Below are positions 27,422 through 42,373 of a stretch of DNA of 44,273 nucleotides, one piece after another. Source of the DNA: Desulfurococcales archaeon (GTDB lineage: Archaea > Thermoproteota > Thermoprotei_A > Sulfolobales > Desulfurococcaceae); contig JAGGXK010000071.1 of assembly GCA_021163115.1 (NCBI GenBank), positions 1-44,273 on the forward strand, given 5' to 3'. How positions within the stretch are numbered: the stretch's first letter is position 1; every line of letters begins with the position of its first letter. Under the pieces are notes generated by a model. The model was not told the origin of the DNA, did no database searches, and saw only the letters and a list, made by a program, of their open reading frames with translations. The position numbers were made by a program, and so were the translations under genes.

Positions 27422-29356
27422 GTGGTAGCTATTCCGGCCAAATACCTTCTAGCTCCTGCTGGTTCCAAGGTGTTATTGCTTGGAAATGAGGCTATTGCAA
27501 GAGCTGCTATAGAATCTGGGATAGGTTTTGCATCAGCTTATCCAGGAACACCTAGTACTGAGATAATTGAGGCTCTTGCAGAGATGGCTAAGGATGTAGG
27601 GTTTTATGTAGAATGGAGTACTAATGAAAAAGTAGCTTTCGAGGCTGCTTATGCTGCTTCTCTTGCAGGTGTTAAAGCACTTGTTGCCATGAAGCATGTG
27701 GGAGTTAATGTTGCAGCAGATATACTTATGAGTAGCGCCTATGCAGGCACTAATGCAGGTTTCCTAGTAGTATCAGCAGATGATCCTGGGCAACATAGTA
27801 GTCAGAACGAGCAGGATAATAGATGGTATGGCTTCCTAGCCCACATACCTGTTATAGAGCCATGGAGCCCCTCTAGTGCATACAGGCTTGTAAAAGCAGC
27901 ATATGAGCTTAGTGAACGATACAGGCACCCAGTAATATTTAGGTCTACGACAAGGATAAGCCATACAAGAGAATCCATATTGCTTGAACACGATATCCCC
28001 AAGAATATTAAAACAAAGGGAGTATTTGACAGAGATATAAAAAGATATGTACTAATACCTGCTCATGGAAGGCTTCTTAAGAAGAAAATGATGGAGAAAT
28101 GGAATAGAATCATTGAAACTGAAGGAAGAGAACCCTTTATCAAAATCATTAACCCTGGAAACAGGAAAGTAATCATTGCATCCGGTATAGCCTATGCACA
28201 TACAATAGAGGCTCTAGAACATCTAGGAAGAGGGAACGAATACACTATTGTAAGAGTTTCCCTCCCAGTACCGTTGCCTAGGAAACCTATTATAGAAATT
28301 TGTAGAGAAGCTTCTAAGGTTCTTGTTCTTGAGGAACTAGACCCTATTGTAGAGCAACAGGTTAAGAAGATATTATTTGATGAGGGAATAGAAACAAAAG
28401 TTTATGGGAAAGAATATGTACCGTTGAACCAAGATCTCGATCTTGATAAAGTATATAGGGCTATCAAGGCTTTTGAGGGACTGGATCCAAGTGAAACACC
28501 ATGGAGGCCTAGAGAGCCAATAAAGACAGAGCCTCCAATACCTCCTAGACCCCCTGTTATGTGCCCCGGATGCCCCCATAGGAATACATTCTATATAATA
28601 AAGGTTGCTGCAAACAAGGCTGGGCTTAGGAATCCTGTATTTACTGGAGACATAGGATGTTATACACTAGGGTTCCAGAAACCCTTCAAGACCCAGGAGA
28701 CAAGCTTTGAAATGGGTGGGAGCATAGGGGTGGCTCATGGGCTTAGCAAGACTATAGAAGAACCGGTCATAGCTGTTATCGGGGACTCAACATTCTATCA
28801 TGCAGGCATACCTCCATCAATAAATATTGTATATAATAAGGGGAGAGCAATAGTCCTTGTTCTCGACAACTACTATACAGCAATGACAGGGCATCAGCCA
28901 CATCCAGGGACAGGATATACAGCAATTGGTGAGAAAACCTACAGGGTTCCAGCAGAAAAAATACTTGAATCAATAGGGTTCAAGACCTATGTTATTAACC
29001 CAATGAATGTTAGAGAATCTATTGAGAAAGTAGTTGAAGCATATAAAGCTTACAGGGAGGGTGGCCAGGTAGCAATTGTATCACGGATGAAGTGTGCATT
29101 ACAGGCATTGCGTGATGCTAGGAGAGCTGGGATAAAACTACCAGTATACGGTATTATAGAGGACAAGTGTACAGGCTGTATGGTTTGTGTAAACCTACTT
29201 GCGTGTCCAGCAATAATTGTTCCAGAAGATGGTAAGAAACCAAGAATACTTCCTGAACTATGTGCTGGCTGTGGATTGTGTGCACAGGTATGTCCATTTA
29301 ATGCTATTGAGGTTATAAGACCAGGTGATCCAGACTGGATAAAAGCTTGGATGTAG
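27422..29356 (+). CDS. iorA: Indolepyruvate:ferredoxin oxidoreductase alpha subunit
   Basis: ORF; TPP domain GDIGCYTLGFQ, PPVMCPGCPHRNTFY, C-terminal 2x[4Fe-4S] CTGCMVC...CAGCGLCAQVCP. Confidence 0.94.
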   Translation: MVAIPAKYLLAPAGSKVLLLGNEAIARAAIESGIGFASAYPGTPSTEIIEALAEMAKDVGFYVEWSTNEKVAFEAAYAASLAGVKALVAMKHVGVNVAADILMSSAYAGTNAGFLVVSADDPGQHSSQNEQDNRWYGFLAHIPVIEPWSPSSAYRLVKAAYELSERYRHPVIFRSTTRISHTRESILLEHDIPKNIKTKGVFDRDIKRYVLIPAHGRLLKKKMMEKWNRIIETEGREPFIKIINPGNRKVIIASGIAYAHTIEALEHLGRGNEYTIVRVSLPVPLPRKPIIEICREASKVLVLEELDPIVEQQVKKILFDEGIETKVYGKEYVPLNQDLDLDKVYRAIKAFEGLDPSETPWRPREPIKTEPPIPPRPPVMCPGCPHRNTFYIIKVAANKAGLRNPVFTGDIGCYTLGFQKPFKTQETSFEMGGSIGVAHGLSKTIEEPVIAVIGDSTFYHAGIPPSINIVYNKGRAIVLVLDNYYTAMTGHQPHPGTGYTAIGEKTYRVPAEKILESIGFKTYVINPMNVRESIEKVVEAYKAYREGGQVAIVSRMKCALQALRDARRAGIKLPVYGIIEDKCTGCMVCVNLLACPAIIVPEDGKKPRILPELCAGCGLCAQVCPFNAIEVIRPGDPDWIKAWM

Positions 29357-29366
29357 GTGGTCTGGT

Positions 29367-29957
29367 ATGACTAGATATAATGTACTTCTAGTTGGTGTGG
29401 GAGGTCAAGGGCTTCTAACCCTAGGCTCTATTATAGGAAATGCTGCAATCGAAAACAATGTACACGTTACTATTGCGGAGACCCATGGCTTAAGTCAGAG
29501 GGGAGGAAGCCTTATTGTACATGTAAGGCTTGGGGAGGGTTCGTCCCCCCTAATACCTAGGGGAGCAGCTGATTTAATAATAGGATTAGAAGCTTTAGAG
29601 ACAGCAAGGTATATCGAGTATGCTAGGGAAAATGCCTTAGTGGTTATGAACGAGTTTCTATGGCCACCGCCGCTAGCTAAGACACCTAGTCTAAACACTA
29701 TTATTGATGAAGCAGGAAAAAGAGCAAGACTCTATATAATTAATGCTAATAAAGAAGCAGAAAGGGCTACAGGACTTGTAGTTACAGCAAATACTTTGAT
29801 CCTAGGGTATGCTATAGGAGTGGACAAGGACTTTGCTAAACTACTTGGGGGAATAGATGTAGTTGAAAAAGCGTTAGCGAGGGTATTTAGAGGAAAAGCT
29901 CTAGGGCTAAACAAAAAAGCCCTACGCAGAGGATACGAGCTTGCGGTATCTCAGTAA
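29367..29957 (+). CDS. iorB: Indolepyruvate:ferredoxin oxidoreductase beta subunit
   Basis: ORF; NVLLVGVGGQGLLTLGSIIGNAA, ETHGLSQRGGSLIVHVRLGE; follows iorA. Confidence 0.93.
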   Translation: MTRYNVLLVGVGGQGLLTLGSIIGNAAIENNVHVTIAETHGLSQRGGSLIVHVRLGEGSSPLIPRGAADLIIGLEALETARYIEYARENALVVMNEFLWPPPLAKTPSLNTIIDEAGKRARLYIINANKEAERATGLVVTANTLILGYAIGVDKDFAKLLGGIDVVEKALARVFRGKALGLNKKALRRGYELAVSQ

Positions 29958-33549: not shown

Positions 33550-33810
33550 TTAATTTACTAGTATAAGTCTTAGATAACTATTTTCTTTAAACTCTTTATC
33601 AGTTACAAGGTTTCTTAATAACTCTTGATCCACTACCTCAATTTCTTTCTCTCTAAGGATTCTCTCCTTTAGCTTAGGTGAAAACCTGTTAAGATAACCC
33701 AACTCTATTGTTTTAAGATACCTACATACTGATATACTTGAAGTATAATGTCTTGATACAACTTGTTTTTCAACAGTGACTGTACATAGATATATGTTTA
33801 TCTTAGGCAA
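33550..33810 (-). CDS. Small hypothetical protein, last gene of the hydrogenase-type operon
   Basis: ORF; start overlaps the preceding NuoB-like gene by 8 nt. Confidence 0.65.
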   Translation of the reverse strand: MPKINIYLCTVTVEKQVVSRHYTSSISVCRYLKTIELGYLNRFSPKLKERILREKEIEVVDQELLRNLVTDKEFKENSYLRLILVN

Positions 33811-34276
33811 TAGCCTTCCTCACCCTCATTTTTACTTTCTTCTGCAGTATTCCTTTAAGGATACCTACTGCATAAATTAATGCCTCAGGCCTTATTGGAC
33901 ATCCCGGAACATAGTATACGCCATCAACTTCTATGCCACGGTTTTTAAGTATTTTTAGTAGCTCGGGAACCCCGCCTATAGTGGAGTAGGTATCATGCCA
34001 TATACCTCCACCAACAGCACAAGAGCCTAAGGCTAAGATAAACCGTGGTCTAGGTACAGCCTCTATAGCTCTAATTACTTTTGGTAGAGACTCGTAGGTT
34101 ATTGGGCCAGTTAATAATAATGCATCAGCGTGTCTTGGGCTGACAACAAGTTTTACACCAAGTCTTTCAGCATCGAAGTAGGGGGTTAGAGCATCCAAGA
34201 TCTCTATATCACAAGCATTACAGCTTCCTGTGTTTAAGTGGAAGACCCATATACTTTTCTTTATATACTCACTCAT
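33803..34276 (-). CDS. Membrane-bound hydrogenase small subunit (NuoB/EchC/MbhJ-like)
   Basis: ORF; GSCNACDIEIL, LALGSCAVGGG, YVPGCPIRPE Cys ligands. Confidence 0.92.
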   Translation of the reverse strand: MSEYIKKSIWVFHLNTGSCNACDIEILDALTPYFDAERLGVKLVVSPRHADALLLTGPITYESLPKVIRAIEAVPRPRFILALGSCAVGGGIWHDTYSTIGGVPELLKILKNRGIEVDGVYYVPGCPIRPEALIYAVGILKGILQKKVKMRVRKAIA

Positions 34277-34811
34277 ACTTCATTACACCTCCTCTCCTCT
34301 TTAATAAAGCGTTTAGGGTCTTTTCTCTACGACACTTAGGATCTTTGTCAATATAGTTTTCTGTTAAAGGAGCTTTTTTGATAACATATATTTTCTGCCT
34401 TATAGTCATAAATGCGGAACCACAGCTACTACACTTAACCATGTCGTGTACAACTATATCTACTAGATCATCTATATTGTCTGTTGCAAGCTCAAAATCT
34501 CTAGTACCTCTTATAGCATTTACAGGGCATACATCAATACATCTCCAGCAATAAATACATCTACCGATAAAGTACTTGATCATGCGTTGCCCGTTTTCTT
34601 CAATAAGTTCTAATGCGTTAGGTGGGCATGCAAGAACACATGCTCCACAGCCAATACACTTCTCTTCATCAATTTCGATCCTACCTCTGAATTCATCAGT
34701 AATCAATGGTTCTGCGAAGGGGTATTTTCTCGTAACTCTGCCAGTCTTTAGAGCTATTTCTAAAGCTTTCAGTATTGTTGAGCGGCTTGTAGCTGGTTTG
34801 TCTTCACTCAT
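34269..34811 (-). CDS. NuoI/MbhN/EchF-like 2x[4Fe-4S] ferredoxin subunit
   Basis: ORF; CIGCGACVLACPPNA and CIYCWRCIDVCPVNA; extra CSSC in C-terminal part. Confidence 0.92.
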   Translation of the reverse strand: MSEDKPATSRSTILKALEIALKTGRVTRKYPFAEPLITDEFRGRIEIDEEKCIGCGACVLACPPNALELIEENGQRMIKYFIGRCIYCWRCIDVCPVNAIRGTRDFELATDNIDDLVDIVVHDMVKCSSCGSAFMTIRQKIYVIKKAPLTENYIDKDPKCRREKTLNALLKRRGGVMKYE

Positions 34812-34817
34812 ATATGA

Positions 34818-36488
34818 TCACCCTGGACATAAACCTATTCCTATTCTCACGATTTTTCTAGCACTGGTCTCGTTAATTACATAGATTCTATCAGTACAGG
34901 AGAAACATGGATCAATACTAGCTATAGTAAGTGGTGCATCAGCTAGTGGTGCTCCCTTTAACATAACTTTTAATGCAGGAATATTTTGATAGGTTGGTGC
35001 TCTTACCTTCCATCTATACGGTCTACCATCACCTGTTATTATATAATGTATATCCTCTCCTCTAGGAGCCTCTGCAAGTGAAACAGCTGCTCTATTCTCT
35101 GGTATCTCAAAATCCTCAGCCATAATAGGTCCTTTAGGTAGCTGGTCTAGTAATTGTCTAATAATCTTAATGCTTTCAATAACCTCATCTGCTCTAACTA
35201 GTAGCCTAGCAAGGTTGTCTCCAGAATCATATACTGGGACATTAAAGTCCACGTAATTGTAAGCAGCATATGGTACGTCACGCCTAACATCCCTGTCTAG
35301 GCCAGAACCTCTTGCAGTAGGTCCTACAACACTTAGTTTTCTAGCATCTTCTTTGGGTAGTATACCTGTTTCTGTAGCTCTCTTCTTTACCTCTGGTACT
35401 GCTAGTAGGGCTTTCAGATACTCCATGTAATCTTTTTCAACTTTATCCAATACTTCAATAGCCTGCTTCTTCTTATCTTCATTAATATCTCTTCTCACAC
35501 CCCCTACAAGGTTTATTCCATAAGTTTTCCTACTGCCAGTAAGGAATTCGGCAAGAACCATTATATGTTCTCTAATCCTCCATGCATGCATAAATCCTGT
35601 ATCATAGCCAAGTAGGTGAGCTGCAACCCCTATCCATAATAAGTGGCTATGGATTCTTTCGATTTCAAGTACTATGCTTCTAATAAACTTTGCTCTCTCT
35701 GGTACATCAATTTTTGCAGCCTTTTCCACAGCCTGAGCATAGCATGTGCTATGGACGAAGCCGCAGATACCACATATTCTCTCAGCCAGAAAGTTTACCT
35801 GTTGATAATTCATCCTACTTTCCCCAAGCTTCTCTATACCTCGGTGTACATGGAATCCTCTATATTTTACATCAACAACAGTTTCTCCCTCAACATATAG
35901 CTCGAAATACTCTGGCTCATGCAATGCTGGATGATATGGTCCAACAGGGATTGTTGCTGTAGCAGTCTTTGGTGGGGTAATTCGTTCGCCAACAGCACTT
36001 GGCCTAGGCCTAATATTGTATGGTACATCCTTACGTAATGGATGCAGGTTATCAGGCCATCCAACCGGGAGTACGAGCCTATATTGTTTCCTCCCCTCAA
36101 ACTCTATTCCAAGAAGATCCCTAGCTTCCATTTCACACCAATCAGCAGCAGGAACTATATCCATTATAGTAGGGGCTACAGGCTTCTTCGGATCAAGATA
36201 TGTCTTAACTACAATGTTTAAGCCATTTCTATCATCACCAAAGATATGGTAAAGTGCAAAATGGCCGAGTAGAGGTCTTTCATCAGAACCAAGGCATGTT
36301 CTCAAGTAACAATCCATCTTATTATGGATAAACTCTGTAACATCTCTAAGCTTCTCCTTAGGTACAACAATAAATAATGTATCGTTGGAGAACAAGTAAT
36401 CAGCCTTTGGATAAATACTCTTAATACCGTCAATGTACTCCTTTAATACGTGATCTAAACTTTTTTTAGTCAACTCATAACACCTCAC
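34818..36488 (-). CDS. Group-4 [NiFe]-hydrogenase large subunit with fused NuoC-like N-terminal domain
   Basis: ORF; NuoC-like N-terminus, L1 motif ERICGICGFVHSTC, L2 motif DPCFSCTDR. Confidence 0.93.
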   Translation of the reverse strand: MRCYELTKKSLDHVLKEYIDGIKSIYPKADYLFSNDTLFIVVPKEKLRDVTEFIHNKMDCYLRTCLGSDERPLLGHFALYHIFGDDRNGLNIVVKTYLDPKKPVAPTIMDIVPAADWCEMEARDLLGIEFEGRKQYRLVLPVGWPDNLHPLRKDVPYNIRPRPSAVGERITPPKTATATIPVGPYHPALHEPEYFELYVEGETVVDVKYRGFHVHRGIEKLGESRMNYQQVNFLAERICGICGFVHSTCYAQAVEKAAKIDVPERAKFIRSIVLEIERIHSHLLWIGVAAHLLGYDTGFMHAWRIREHIMVLAEFLTGSRKTYGINLVGGVRRDINEDKKKQAIEVLDKVEKDYMEYLKALLAVPEVKKRATETGILPKEDARKLSVVGPTARGSGLDRDVRRDVPYAAYNYVDFNVPVYDSGDNLARLLVRADEVIESIKIIRQLLDQLPKGPIMAEDFEIPENRAAVSLAEAPRGEDIHYIITGDGRPYRWKVRAPTYQNIPALKVMLKGAPLADAPLTIASIDPCFSCTDRIYVINETSARKIVRIGIGLCPG

Positions 36489-37381
36489 TTAAAGACTAGA
36501 TATAATATGATGGTTATAGAAAAAAGTATAGAATAAAGTTTCAACAATGAAACAGGAGCTATATCAACTCTGCTTCTTCCAAACAAAGCAGCTAAACCAG
36601 CATATATAACCCATAGTATTGGAAGAATTATTAAACTTGTAATCAAGGCATACATATTTGATCCTGTAAATGGAGCGATAAGAACATATACTGGAATTAG
36701 TTTGAATAATGCTCTTCTTACAAGGTTTGCATACACAAATACTCCAAGAAGAGGGCCTGTTAGCTCAACTAGTATACCTGAAGCTATCTCTGGCTCAGCT
36801 TCTGCTATATCGAAGGGTTGTCTACCGCATGATACATAGCCTACTATAAACAGTATAGCTGCAAGAATGAGATATGCAGGAGTAGGATGAATATAGGGTA
36901 AGCTACTTAGATAGGTTTCTCCTGAGAAGAATATAAGAAGGGCCATGGCTATAAAGAATACTATCTCATTTACAAGGACTAGTAATACCTCTCTAGTTGC
37001 TCCTATAATGGCAAATGGGTTAGATGTTACAAATGGTAGGACAATAAATGTTGTCTGTAGAATAGTTATTAAGATAATTAGTACCATTATACTGTTCCAC
37101 ATAGGAACCAGTACGGCTGTAATAAAGTATGTTATAGACATTATAGAGAGCATCATGTATAAGAATAAGAAGAATACTACATGGAATGGATTAGGTATCA
37201 CACTCAATTTCTTAGCAAAAAGTTTTCTAATATCATACCATGTCTGTAGAATAGGAGGCCCTATTCTACTATGAATTGCTGCCTTCACTTTTCTCTCAAT
37301 ACTATCAAGTATAGGGACAATAAATAATAAAGTAGTGATACTCGACAATACCAAGCCCGCATTAATAAAATCCAGCGACAT
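36485..37381 (-). CDS. NuoH/EchB/MbhM-like membrane subunit
   Basis: ORF; SIERKVKAAIHSRIGPPILQTWYDIRKLFAK, RQPFDIAEAEPEIASGILVELTGP. Confidence 0.93.
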   Translation of the reverse strand: MSLDFINAGLVLSSITTLLFIVPILDSIERKVKAAIHSRIGPPILQTWYDIRKLFAKKLSVIPNPFHVVFFLFLYMMLSIMSITYFITAVLVPMWNSIMVLIILITILQTTFIVLPFVTSNPFAIIGATREVLLVLVNEIVFFIAMALLIFFSGETYLSSLPYIHPTPAYLILAAILFIVGYVSCGRQPFDIAEAEPEIASGILVELTGPLLGVFVYANLVRRALFKLIPVYVLIAPFTGSNMYALITSLIILPILWVIYAGLAALFGRSRVDIAPVSLLKLYSILFSITIILYLVFK

Positions 37382-37387
37382 AAGTGA

Positions 37388-37693
37388 TCACCGGAGATAA
37401 ACTATATAATATAGTGCTAGAACTAAGAAGGCAAGTGTAAACAGTACACCAATAAATAGTGATGACAGAGTTGTTGATTCGTATAGTGATTTTTGTAGTA
37501 AACCAAGTTTTCTAGTTACTCGTTCAGTAGTCCTTATAATCCATGCCTCATTTTTGTTTCCAAAGCGTACGGTTTTTACAAGGAAGTACTTTAGTTTATT
37601 AGAGAGTTTGGCCCCGATCCTTGTTATGTCCCTCTTTACTTTCTCAGCAATTTTCTCAAGATATCTTAGCGTAGATGCTGTTGTAGCACTCAT
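37388..37693 (-). CDS. Small subunit with long basic amphipathic region and one C-terminal TM helix
   Basis: ORF; overlaps upstream antiporter-like gene by 4 nt; C-terminal TTLSSLFIGVLFTLAFLVLALYYIVYLR. Confidence 0.75.
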   Translation of the reverse strand: MSATTASTLRYLEKIAEKVKRDITRIGAKLSNKLKYFLVKTVRFGNKNEAWIIRTTERVTRKLGLLQKSLYESTTLSSLFIGVLFTLAFLVLALYYIVYLR

Positions 37694-39210
37694 AACTCAA
37701 TACCTCCTAGCCACGGCTCTGGTGCTTTATAGATCTTTGGTGATATACTATAACTAATTGCTAATAATACTAGTGCTAATATATGGATTATCAATAGTAT
37801 ATTTATTGCGCTACTAAATGAGATTAGCGGAAGCATTGTAAAAGGCAAAGCTATTACTGCTATAGCTGGTATTATTTCACCGATTTTTTGTAGACTAGTG
37901 ATCTCTAAAGCAGGTCTTGGAACTCTTCTAGTAGGATAACCTATATAGCATCCAAGGTATTTAACAGAGTATACTATACTGAATATTGATGCTATTCCAA
38001 CACTAACTATAAGTATTATTGATTCTAGAATACTGTATTTTAGTAGATCAAGTACTGTTATAATAACTAGGGCTTTAGCCATAAAACCTATTGTAGGCGG
38101 TAGCCCCATTAGTGCTGTTACTCCAATAACTATGTAATTATAGATCTCTGGTGTGACTCCTGAGAGATAGCCAAGGTTTCTTGTATCAAAAGTGTTTGCA
38201 AGAACCGCTATGGTCCCTGTATTAAGGAATAACTGGGTCTTAACAAACCCATGGTATAGTGCATAGAATATCACTAGATCCTTTACATAGTTTATTACTG
38301 GCATAAGGGATAATAATATAACCATTATACCATAGTGTGCCATAGAGCTATATGCAAGCATTCTCTTAACATTGGTCTGGGCAGCAGACATTACTGAACC
38401 ATATATTATTGTAACCGCGCCCATTATAAGCAGGATCGTCATAAACAGCATTTTATCCACTATTACAGTATTATATATTCTTAATAAACCATATACTCCC
38501 ATTTTAGACATTAGCCCGCTCATAATAGCGGTTACAACAGGTGGTGCTTCAGCATATGTATCTACAAGCCATATATGTAGCGGTATCTGTGCTAGTTTTG
38601 CTAGGAAACCTATTACAAGCAGTACTGTTATAACATGGGGTGCTGTTACTCCATAGGCTTGTAGTGTTGAAAAGTCGGCTAGTAATGCATTAGTTATTCC
38701 TATTTTCTGTGCTTCCACACCAATCCATGTAAATAACGATGTATCGCCAGCAGTAGCACAGATTATGAGATACTTCATACCTATATTCCATAACACTGTA
38801 CCCCGTTCAATCATTATTAACAGGAATCCTGTAATCTCTATAGCAATCCATAGAATAGTTAGCTCTAGCAAATTATATGCTGTATAAAACATTATTAACA
38901 GGGCCAATGAAGAATCTATTATTGTCTGAAGGCTAGATGCTTTACCGAAGAGCGTTCTAAAGTATCCCTCACTATACAAGCTTATTGACAGGCTGGCAAG
39001 ACTTGCAAGCACTACAAACATGATCTGGATCCGGTCAAAAGCAACTACTCCATAGATGACACTATAGACTATCATATAGATCCATATTATTGTATAAGCA
39101 AGAATTCTCAATACCCTGCTTAATCTTCTATGCTTATCTACACTCATACCACCTATTATTGCAAATATGAAGATCAAGGCCCATGTAGTATAGCGTAGAT
39201 GGTCAATCAT
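37690..39210 (-). CDS. Antiporter-like proton-conducting subunit (NuoN/MrpD/MbhH-like)
   Basis: ORF; FLAKLAQIPLHIWLVDTYAEAPPVVTAIMSGLMSKMGVYGLLR. Confidence 0.92.
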   Translation of the reverse strand: MIDHLRYTTWALIFIFAIIGGMSVDKHRRLSRVLRILAYTIIWIYMIVYSVIYGVVAFDRIQIMFVVLASLASLSISLYSEGYFRTLFGKASSLQTIIDSSLALLIMFYTAYNLLELTILWIAIEITGFLLIMIERGTVLWNIGMKYLIICATAGDTSLFTWIGVEAQKIGITNALLADFSTLQAYGVTAPHVITVLLVIGFLAKLAQIPLHIWLVDTYAEAPPVVTAIMSGLMSKMGVYGLLRIYNTVIVDKMLFMTILLIMGAVTIIYGSVMSAAQTNVKRMLAYSSMAHYGIMVILLSLMPVINYVKDLVIFYALYHGFVKTQLFLNTGTIAVLANTFDTRNLGYLSGVTPEIYNYIVIGVTALMGLPPTIGFMAKALVIITVLDLLKYSILESIILIVSVGIASIFSIVYSVKYLGCYIGYPTRRVPRPALEITSLQKIGEIIPAIAVIALPFTMLPLISFSSAINILLIIHILALVLLAISYSISPKIYKAPEPWLGGIEL

Positions 39211-40724
39211 GTAACACCACCTACTCCGCGTCCAGCAATTAAGTAGAGTGTATAGATCATGATAATTAGTAAAGGCAAGGAAAGAAGCAGAGCTATAAGT
39301 ACCGGGATATTTACTCCTCCACTACATATTAGAGGGAATACCATGTAGATATTCGCACCTGCAGCTATAAGCTCCATAAATTCTATCTCATTATACTCCC
39401 TAGCTTCAATATTTGTTCTTATAGATGGTTTATCAAAGAACATATGCATATATCTAAGCCCTATTGCTACAGACAACGCTATTGTTAGCACGAGACCTAT
39501 TAGGGGGAATATTTGTTCTATAGTATTTAATCCAAGCTCTAATGATGCTATGAAACCAAGCAGTTTTGCAGTAAAACCTGCTGTGGGTGGTATACCTATT
39601 AATGAGAATATAGATATATAGGCTGCAAGTGAGGAGATGGGAAACAATTTACTAAATCCTCTTATTAGCTCGATCTTCCTTGTATGGTAAACTAGCTCCA
39701 TAGTTCCAGCATTCAGGAATAATGATGCTTTATATCCTGCATGAGATAGTATTGCTAGAATAAACACTGTATAAGCTATAGGCTCCCCTGATACAACATA
39801 CACGGCAAGCATTACAGCGGATAATCCTGTACCCATTATAGTACTATATGCAAGCATTCTCTTTATATCATGCTGGATAAGACTTTGTAAGCCACCATAA
39901 ACTATAGATATTATCCCTAAAACAGCTAAGACGTAGAAGAATATTATGGGATCAAGGCGGATGATCTGGTAAACTCTATATAATCCATATAATCCAAGCC
40001 CGGTCATAACACCGCTTAAAAGCGCTGATCCAGGTGATGGTGCAACTGTGTGAGCGTCCGGGAGCCAGAAATGGAGTGGAACAAGTGCGGATTTTGTAAT
40101 AAATCCTATAAGAACAAGTGGTAACAGGTAACTAGGTATGGCTGGTCTTAGCTGTTCTAATATCCAGTATGGTGTAAAAAGTGCCTCGAATAAGCCTTTT
40201 TCAATAATTATTGTTGTTGCTAAAGATAATATACTTAGATAAATTAATGTGAATACTGTTATCTCAAACGTCATAGTTGATATAAATAAGAACCTCTTTG
40301 AAGCCCTGTGCCCAGCGGTTTCTCCATAAAATATTATAGTGAATCCAAGGATTTCTGCCAAAGTCCATGAAATCGCTAAAAGTATTAGAGAGGGAGATAT
40401 AAATGCTGATATAAGTAAGATAGAGAACAAACAGATCATGAGGTCAAGGTTTATAGTAATACCCTTTTTGTCTTTATAATCAATTGAATATAGTGTTATA
40501 GGTAGGGATAGTAGTGTAAAGGAGAGGCCCATTATAAAAGATAGGGAGTCAATATACCTAGTTATATAAAACAATATGGTTGAGAATGCAAGCAATATAT
40601 AGGATACTATGTATAAACCAGTCTTTACGTTTCTATCTCTAGCTCTAAAAACTAGGTAGAGCATGGGAAAAATAAGTATGTATAGAGCTAGTGCTATAAT
40701 AGATTCTATAGTTGACGGTATCAA
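39207..40724 (-). CDS. Antiporter-like proton-conducting subunit (NuoM/NuoL/MrpD-like)
   Basis: ORF; ITKSALVPLHFWLPDAHTVAPSPGSALLSGVMTGLGLYGLYR. Confidence 0.93.
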   Translation of the reverse strand: MIPSTIESIIALALYILIFPMLYLVFRARDRNVKTGLYIVSYILLAFSTILFYITRYIDSLSFIMGLSFTLLSLPITLYSIDYKDKKGITINLDLMICLFSILLISAFISPSLILLAISWTLAEILGFTIIFYGETAGHRASKRFLFISTMTFEITVFTLIYLSILSLATTIIIEKGLFEALFTPYWILEQLRPAIPSYLLPLVLIGFITKSALVPLHFWLPDAHTVAPSPGSALLSGVMTGLGLYGLYRVYQIIRLDPIIFFYVLAVLGIISIVYGGLQSLIQHDIKRMLAYSTIMGTGLSAVMLAVYVVSGEPIAYTVFILAILSHAGYKASLFLNAGTMELVYHTRKIELIRGFSKLFPISSLAAYISIFSLIGIPPTAGFTAKLLGFIASLELGLNTIEQIFPLIGLVLTIALSVAIGLRYMHMFFDKPSIRTNIEAREYNEIEFMELIAAGANIYMVFPLICSGGVNIPVLIALLLSLPLLIIMIYTLYLIAGRGVGGVT

Positions 40725-40739
40725 CTCATTAACCCAGCC

Positions 40740-41252
40740 CTACTGTTTTATTGACTCCATCCTAGCTTTAGCAAATAACTCGGCAACCCTATACTTTGTT
40801 TTATCAAATACTTTCTCCTCCTTACCAACAATTATAGCGCCTGCGGGACACATTGCTGCACAAGCTGGTATTAATCCGTTTGATCTAAGCCCTTTACATA
40901 GATCACACTTAATCGCTACTCTGGCAGCAGGATGTAGTTCTGGAATACCAAATGGACATGCATAGAGGCATGCAAGACATCCTATACATCTAGATTCCTC
41001 AACATATACTGCTCCATCTTTATCTCTAGTCATAGCACCGGTAGGACATACATCAATACAGGGAGCATTTTTACAGTGCATACATGATACAGGTATCTCA
41101 AGGCCTATACTGGTCCTGTATACTTTAATAAATGGTTTTCCGTAAAGAAACTCACATACAGCTTCACATGTTCCACAGCCTATACAAGTAGCTAGATCTA
41201 TTACTCTTAGGTATTTTGGACCAGGACTATCTTTCCCTTTTCCAACAGACAT
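40740..41252 (-). CDS. HycB/CooF-like polyferredoxin with four [4Fe-4S] motifs
   Basis: ORF; CIGCGTCEAVC, CMHCKNAPCIDVCP, CIGCLACLYACP, CDLCKGLRSNGLIPACAAMCP. Confidence 0.93.
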   Translation of the reverse strand: MSVGKGKDSPGPKYLRVIDLATCIGCGTCEAVCEFLYGKPFIKVYRTSIGLEIPVSCMHCKNAPCIDVCPTGAMTRDKDGAVYVEESRCIGCLACLYACPFGIPELHPAARVAIKCDLCKGLRSNGLIPACAAMCPAGAIIVGKEEKVFDKTKYRVAELFAKARMESIKQ

Positions 41253-41272
41253 TTAGAACACCTCTTCATGTC

Positions 41273-42373
41273 TTATACACTTTGAATAAACTTATTCGAT
41301 CTAGCACGTAGAAACATGTCAAGATTACATGCAGCCCTTAAGCCTGAGGCAACAGCTGACCCTATCTTCGAAGGCCCTGTAACAACATCTCCTGCAACAA
41401 AGATCTTTGGATTACTTGACTGGTATCGCTCATCTACTACAACACAGCCCCATTTATCAAGCTCTATACCTAGTTTCTGGAGAGCCTCTTTGTCTTCTAA
41501 TGAAACAGGTGGGGTAGATAACTCGCCTGTAGCAAAGATTACTAGATCAGCATCCATTATAAACTCTGAACCAGGAATAGGTTCTGGCCTTGGCCTTCCG
41601 CTTCTATCTGGTTTACCAAGCTTCATTCGCTGGCACTTTATACCTTTAACTTTATTATCTTCAGTAATTATTTCAAGGGGGGATATAAGTTCCTTGATCT
41701 CTACACCCATAGCCCTTATCCGTTCCATCTCATAAACGCCTGCAGGAGCATATTTTATAGTCCTCCTATAGACGAGATGAACCTCGTCTGCCCGATCCCT
41801 AATGGCTTGTTCAGCAGCGTCTACGGCACTATATCCCCCACCAATAACTACTACCTTACCCTCGGTTACAGGCTTTTTATCTGAGAAGCCTAGCTCGTAT
41901 ATTCTATGCTTATATACATACTCTAATGCTGTCAATACACCATCTGCATCAGCACCTGGTAGTCTGGGAACCCTTGATCTCCATGCACCAGTTGTTATAA
42001 TTACCGCATCATAGTTATTAACGATCTCTTCTAGCGGTATATTCTTTTCAACAAAGTCATCCCCCTCATCATGCCGGGGCTTTCCAGCAAAAACTTTTGT
42101 CCTTAATAAAAACTTAACACCAAAGTTCTCCTTAAGCACCTTAATTCCTTCTAGAACTCTCTCCCTGGGGATCCTCCATGGAGGAATGGCAAAAATCATT
42201 AATCCCCCAGGAAGAGGTTGTTTATCATATATATCTACATCATATCCCTGGCATACAAGATACCCTGTTGCAGCTAATCCAGCAGGTCCAGCACCTATAA
42301 CTGCCACTTTCCCACGGCTTGAAGAAGGTTTTTCCTTACACAGAAAAGCAAACCTCATTATATCTTCAAGCAT
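41273..42373 (-). CDS. GltD/SudA/NfnB-like FAD-NAD(P)H oxidoreductase lacking the N-terminal Fe-S domain
   Basis: ORF; VAVIGAGPAGLAATGYLVCQGYDVDIYD, VVVIGGGYSAVDAAEQAI, IFVAGDVVTGPSKIGSAVASGLRAA. Confidence 0.9.
   Translation of the reverse strand: MLEDIMRFAFLCKEKPSSSRGKVAVIGAGPAGLAATGYLVCQGYDVDIYDKQPLPGGLMIFAIPPWRIPRERVLEGIKVLKENFGVKFLLRTKVFAGKPRHDEGDDFVEKNIPLEEIVNNYDAVIITTGAWRSRVPRLPGADADGVLTALEYVYKHRIYELGFSDKKPVTEGKVVVIGGGYSAVDAAEQAIRDRADEVHLVYRRTIKYAPAGVYEMERIRAMGVEIKELISPLEIITEDNKVKGIKCQRMKLGKPDRSGRPRPEPIPGSEFIMDADLVIFATGELSTPPVSLEDKEALQKLGIELDKWGCVVVDERYQSSNPKIFVAGDVVTGPSKIGSAVASGLRAACNLDMFLRARSNKFIQSV

Follow-up and report, generated by a model that had tools for sequence, protein, structure and literature searches.

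Which electron donor serves a formate hydrogenlyase (FHL)-like [NiFe]-hydrogenase whose operon encodes no formate dehydrogenase? The question is raised by ten open reading frames at positions 33550-42373 of the window, a stretch of 44,273 nucleotides from a Desulfurococcales archaeon (contig C60 of a 1.38 Mb genome, 70% complete). All ten lie on the minus strand, as do their individual coordinates given below, contain no internal stop and agree in position with the initial annotation. In order of transcription, they encode a GltD-like flavoprotein, a HycB-like ferredoxin, two antiporter-like subunits, a small membrane protein, NuoH, a NuoC-NuoD fusion, NuoI, NuoB and an 86-aa protein. The genes had been described as contiguous with overlaps of 4-8 nt. 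Number and strand stood, the overlaps in part: among the nine junctions, five are overlaps of 4 or 8 nt and four are gaps (6, 6, 15 and 20 nt). Eight of the reading frames were assigned by Pfam and NCBIfam, the Pfam matches including a Fer4 set. The two others, of 101 and 86 aa, have no counterpart in Pfam; they are regarded as real genes because dozens of syntenic loci carry both in the same position. A Pfam search of the operon agreed with the earlier statement that genes for formate dehydrogenase, CO dehydrogenase (CODH) and Mrp antiporters are missing from it.

With a probability of roughly 0.7, the operon encodes a membrane-bound HycE-type, FHL-1-like [NiFe]-hydrogenase that acts as a reversible NADPH-H2 complex with ion translocation. 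We infer the use of NADPH rather than NADH, the direction, the coupling to ions and the assembly into a single complex.

Hydrogenase core and membrane arm

The large subunit (34818..36488, 556 aa) is a fused NuoC-NuoD protein of the HycE type. Complex1_49kDa (5e-66), Complex1_30kDa (2.3e-23) and NiFeSe_Hases (8.8e-17) all match this one protein. Its top PDB match is chain E of 7z0s, the FHL subunit 5 (HycE) of E. coli (4.6e-140), and the identity to E. coli HycE amounts to 43% over 535 aa. Both nickel-ligand cysteine pairs already seen in the sequence, RICGIC and DPCFSC, are present (4/4 Cys). An identity as Complex I or Fpo, with a NuoD lacking the NiFe site, was rejected on these four ligands. 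A C-terminal tail of 22 aa extends past DPCFSCTDR, as expected of a nickel-processed precursor, and such a tail occurs in all large subunits of relatives with a complete C-terminus. Tails of this kind are cut off by a HycI-type protease once nickel has been inserted. The assignment to group 4 is thus upheld by the HycE-type large subunit with HycE as best match, the cysteine ligands and the tail. An Mbh or MBX identity was rejected, as NuoC and NuoD are fused and the operon has no Mrp genes. In the HydDB scheme, subgroup 4b is formate- or CO-linked with Mrp subunits, and 4g is listed as unknown (PMC5037454).

Two iron-sulfur subunits follow. The NuoI/HycF-like two-cluster ferredoxin subunit (34269..34811) has 34% identity to HycF and matches PRK12387 with 3.8e-37, below the cut-off of that model. 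The NuoB/HycG-like small subunit (33803..34276) matches Oxidored_q6 (1.1e-22) and is 41% identical to HycG. From hycB to hycG, the genes are arranged as in the E. coli hyc operon; the additions are the genes of a second antiporter-like subunit and of the small transmembrane protein.

The membrane arm comprises two antiporter-like subunits of the NuoL/M/N type, the first HycC-like (39207..40724; Proton_antipo_M 1.1e-40) and the second at 37690..39210 (Proton_antipo_M 1.4e-43), and a NuoH/HycD-like subunit (36485..37381; NADHdh 8.4e-32; 31% identity to HycD). Subunit 1 has conserved W..E..G, GF..K, H..YK and GF..K motifs, and its lysine of TM8 is not conserved; subunit 2 has conserved lysines of TM7, TM8 and TM12. 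Judged from these conserved antiporter residues only, NuoH and both antiporter-like subunits would move ions across the membrane. The 101-aa protein (37388..37693) has one C-terminal TM-like segment and belongs to a conserved family, with homologues in the same position in about 50 loci. Its origin as a split-off lateral helix or anchor of HycC/NuoL was not supported by profile comparison (probability 1%).

Hyp maturation genes, initially named as a check on the hydrogenase, were found in the genome. Contig C80 carries hypF, hypE, hypD and hypA, in a hyp cluster that also includes a MinD-like gene, and encodes a HycI-like protease; hypC is also present in the genome.

Electron input and alternative donors

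The GltD-like FAD/NAD(P)H flavoprotein (41273..42373, 366 aa) is of the PRK12770 type (NF009409 7.6e-144, above cut-off; Pyr_redox_2 5.5e-36). The alignment to the P. furiosus NfnI alpha subunit (5jca) runs from residue 21 of the flavoprotein and begins only at residue 155 of NfnI; the protein thus lacks the Fe-S domain that Nfn has at its N-terminus. A YRR motif, taken here to be the contact of GltD and Nfn proteins to the 2'-phosphate of NADPH, is present in 31 of 33 orthologues. The HycB-like ferredoxin (40740..41252, 170 aa) matches Fer4_11, has 34% identity to E. coli HycB and contains 16 Cys in four [4Fe-4S] motifs. All 39 orthologues have the four motifs and at least 16 Cys. The models of AegA and YgfT match the flavoprotein as well as the HycB-like protein. 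In two relatives, both are fused into a single chain of 535 aa (L135:5228-6835 and L136:8030-9637). The AorABC structure contains a polyferredoxin that bridges the FAD/NAD subunit and the catalytic subunit (PMC10413684); the fusion and this bridge support a direct electron transfer between flavoprotein and ferredoxin. The initial proposal of an NAD(P)H module formed by flavoprotein and polyferredoxin thus appears likely from the YRR motif, the Nfn/GltD alignment and the fusion in relatives. Electron bifurcation of the Nfn or SudAB type was rejected, since the operon has neither the N-terminal Fe-S domain nor an NfnS-like gene. Close to the fused genes, an aldehyde:ferredoxin oxidoreductase gene is predicted, judged from the sequence.

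In the proposed mechanism, a NADPH-reactive flavoprotein of the GltD family would stand in for the formate dehydrogenase of FHL. Electrons would pass from NADPH to the FAD of this protein, through the four [4Fe-4S] clusters of HycB and the two of NuoI, and via the proximal [4Fe-4S] cluster of NuoB to the NiFe site, where H2 would be formed. Reverse electron flow is also probable. The oxidation of NADPH to H2 is uphill at standard conditions and thermodynamically marginal. Hence, H2 could be formed from NADPH with outward ion pumping only at very low H2, and the H2 pressure may decide in which direction the complex works; it may operate in reverse or accept electrons from ferredoxin. Little or no H2 was found in the cited cultures of D. 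amylolyticus, which has a counterpart operon (Desfe_1134-1141), and this counts against the proposed function (PMC7143981).

The main rival, itself unlikely, makes ferredoxin the true donor. Electrons would enter at NuoI or HycB, as in Mbh, and leave as H2 and, via GltD, to NADP+; the flavoprotein would then be an NADPH-making outlet. A gene pair inside the window (27422-29957) resembles indolepyruvate:ferredoxin oxidoreductase and is a possible ferredoxin source. The source genome showed neither Nfn nor any further full-length GltD homologue, which also fits this rival, as do relatives that have HycB without GltD (L068, L072). These relatives indicate that the flavoprotein is not obligatory. 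GltD-like proteins have many different partners. However, contig C80 already holds an Mbh-like group-4 hydrogenase with Mrp genes in the ferredoxin-linked Mbh layout, and most relatives keep both the GltD-linked and the Mbh-like type. Contig C74 carries a CODH-linked group-4 hydrogenase with Mrp genes. The second group-4 hydrogenase of the same genome (L007:4867-18243) is linked to CooS-CooF-CooC and Mrp genes, and its H2 production is likely driven by CO.

A polysulfide reductase-type role was proposed for the complex (PMC2678158), and Staphylothermus marinus, one of its carriers, reduces sulfur. It is very improbable here: the large subunits keep the full NiFe ligand set and the processing tail, GltD adjoins HycB and is fused to a HycB-like part in relatives, and T. 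aggregans carries the operon, yet is inhibited by sulfur (PMC3035292).

Formate hydrogenlyase activity with a formate dehydrogenase encoded elsewhere has a negligible probability. HycB and HycE do resemble FHL, and the source genome is just 70% complete. However, no molybdopterin oxidoreductase (PF00384) was found in this genome, in T. aggregans or in 9 of the 12 relatives searched, several of which are complete, so that a formate dehydrogenase in trans was rejected for most of the complete relatives and this explanation is largely refuted. The earlier reading of a system free of formate dehydrogenase thus holds for the operon and for the 70% of the genome at hand. Relative G003 has two PF00384 proteins. 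The gene of one immediately precedes a HycB-like gene within a distinct cluster of the FHL type, and the large subunit of that cluster is placed far from the GltD-linked one in the tree. D. amylolyticus, which carries the counterpart operon, lacks an fdh gene and formed no H2 from formate (PMC7143981). Among unassigned reading frames of about 670-970 aa near the operons of relatives, only that of the bacterial locus L115 looked formate dehydrogenase-like on visual inspection of the initial 120 residues. Most of these archaea are without formate dehydrogenase, and many retain this FHL-like hydrogenase with a flavoprotein instead.

Distribution, module exchange and the orphan protein

The flavoprotein gene accompanies this hydrogenase in 34 further loci, 26 from the genome collection and eight from the genomes of relatives. 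A survey of gene neighbourhoods, as initially advised, found the order GltD-HycB-antiporters-NuoH-NuoCD-NuoI-NuoB kept in most of them; GltD-HycB stands at the 3' end of the operon in L071, L074 and L076. Mrp genes are missing in the window, in T. aggregans and in others, lie downstream of the operon in L120 and in the Pyrodictiaceae locus L103, and upstream in Ignisphaera and Thermogladius. Their absence is one arrangement among several and no defining trait.

In the tree of large subunits, all GltD-linked members fall into one thermoproteal clade (support 98/99). CODH-linked members are nested in this clade at three places (L065; L061/L062; L080), which indicates an exchange of the donor module. 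In L065, CooC-CooF-CooS is located directly ahead of the hydrogenase genes, at the expected position of GltD-HycB. By the tree topology, the flavoprotein module has been replaced by CO dehydrogenase several times within the clade.

Among the CODH-linked loci, L061 (9382-12068) and L062 (3538-6183) carry, by CODH genes, a partial set of small TM protein, NuoCD and NuoI; NuoB, NuoH and antiporter genes are absent nearby. Each of these genomes has one close NuoB homologue elsewhere, so that the partial set and the GltD-linked complex may have subunits in common. L080 (3476-12135) from Zestosphaera tikiterensis comprises antiporter, NuoH, NuoCD and NuoI genes and no adjacent NuoB; a close NuoB homologue is encoded elsewhere in the genome. 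A small sister clade (L078, L084, L087, L099) is of the HycE type and has no adjacent GltD, HycB or CODH. In this clade, the NuoB gene precedes a conserved one of about 320 aa that resembles sugar isomerases on visual inspection.

The last gene of the operon (33550..33810) encodes an orphan protein of 86 aa with invariant C9, R20, H21, C29 and Y79 among 41 aligned members. Of 229 genomes of the class, 59 encode a member of the family, almost always as a single copy. Its gene lies directly 3' of the NuoB gene of this hydrogenase in the genomes compared, the same place being occupied in about 40 loci. The CODH-linked loci L061, L062, L065 and L080 yielded no member of the family. The protein has no Pfam family and no PDB sequence match. 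Its AlphaFold2 model is of good confidence (pLDDT 84), and the predicted fold matches nothing in the PDB at E < 0.001. An identity as HycH, suggested by the hycH position, was rejected for lack of a Pfam, PDB-sequence or fold match. The protein may be a subunit or an assembly protein. A wider proposal is tentative and more doubtful than not: the orphan, with its Cys/Arg-His/Cys site, would serve a NADPH-reactive, ion-pumping hydrogenase as a dedicated and so far unrecognised component, be it a subunit, a coupling factor or an assembly protein, and this thermoproteal lineage would be a platform that exchanges GltD-HycB or CooS-CooF on one hydrogenase core.

If NADPH-linked, the complex would connect the NADPH pool directly, at the membrane, with H2 and an ion gradient; the nested CODH swaps would provide a natural test of donor change in FHL-like complexes.

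Comparison with known systems

The subunit combination had been considered possibly undescribed. This did not hold: the operon type has been known since 2009-2010 and is not new. It was published from Staphylothermus marinus (Smar_1055-1071), where it groups with hydrogenases 3 and 4 of E. coli (PMC2678158, 2009), and from T. aggregans (Tagg_0050-0059) and Desulfurococcus kamchatkensis, in which FdhA is replaced by a SudA homologue and an oxidation of NADPH was proposed (PMC3035292, 2010). The T. aggregans operon was named 'Dehydrogenase-linked MBX complex' (PMC3035292). For both T. aggregans and S. marinus, the lack of a formate dehydrogenase and a possible link to NAD(P)H were noted (PMC3035292, PMC2678158). 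No activity, purification or expression data for this operon type were found in the literature. New here are the single thermoproteal clade, the nested CODH swaps and the orphan family (Cys, Arg-His, Cys) that accompanies the hydrogenase.

AegA and YgfT of E. coli and NfnL/SudA share the GltD-type flavoprotein domain. However, AegA is a single chain, and NfnL contains an N-terminal Fe-S domain and works with NfnS as its partner, neither of which occurs in the operon. AorABC of Aromatoleum aromaticum likewise places a four-cluster polyferredoxin between a FAD/NAD subunit and a catalytic subunit, but it is a tungsten aldehyde oxidoreductase without hydrogenase or membrane arm (PMC10413684). The CODH-linked group-4 hydrogenases of Thermococcus and Desulfurococcales (e.g. 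L096, L007) have a tailed, fused large subunit and form a neighbouring clade; they use a CooS/CooF donor and Mrp genes and have neither GltD nor the 86-aa protein. E. coli FHL-1 (hycBCDEFG) agrees in the order from hycB to hycG, the fused large subunit and the four-cluster HycB. The operon of the window differs from it in the flavoprotein in place of formate dehydrogenase, two antiporter-like subunits and the small TM protein, and no hycH homologue was recognised in it. S. marinus Smar_1055-1071, for which L120 is taken, shares flavoprotein, HycB, antiporter-like subunits, NuoH, NuoCD, NuoI, NuoB and the small orphan, but its operon is followed by Mrp-type antiporter genes. The T. aggregans locus (L119) has an identical gene order, and the operons of D. 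kamchatkensis and D. amylolyticus (Desfe_1134-1141; PMC7143981) likewise agree in genes and order and have no formate dehydrogenase or Mrp genes. The operon of the window is of this type, with a SudA/GltD-like gene replacing fdhA, a group-4 core and no formate dehydrogenase. Tagg_0050-0059 has the same genes, likewise without Mrp genes, and differs in sequence divergence only, the large subunit being 66% and the flavoprotein 62% identical.
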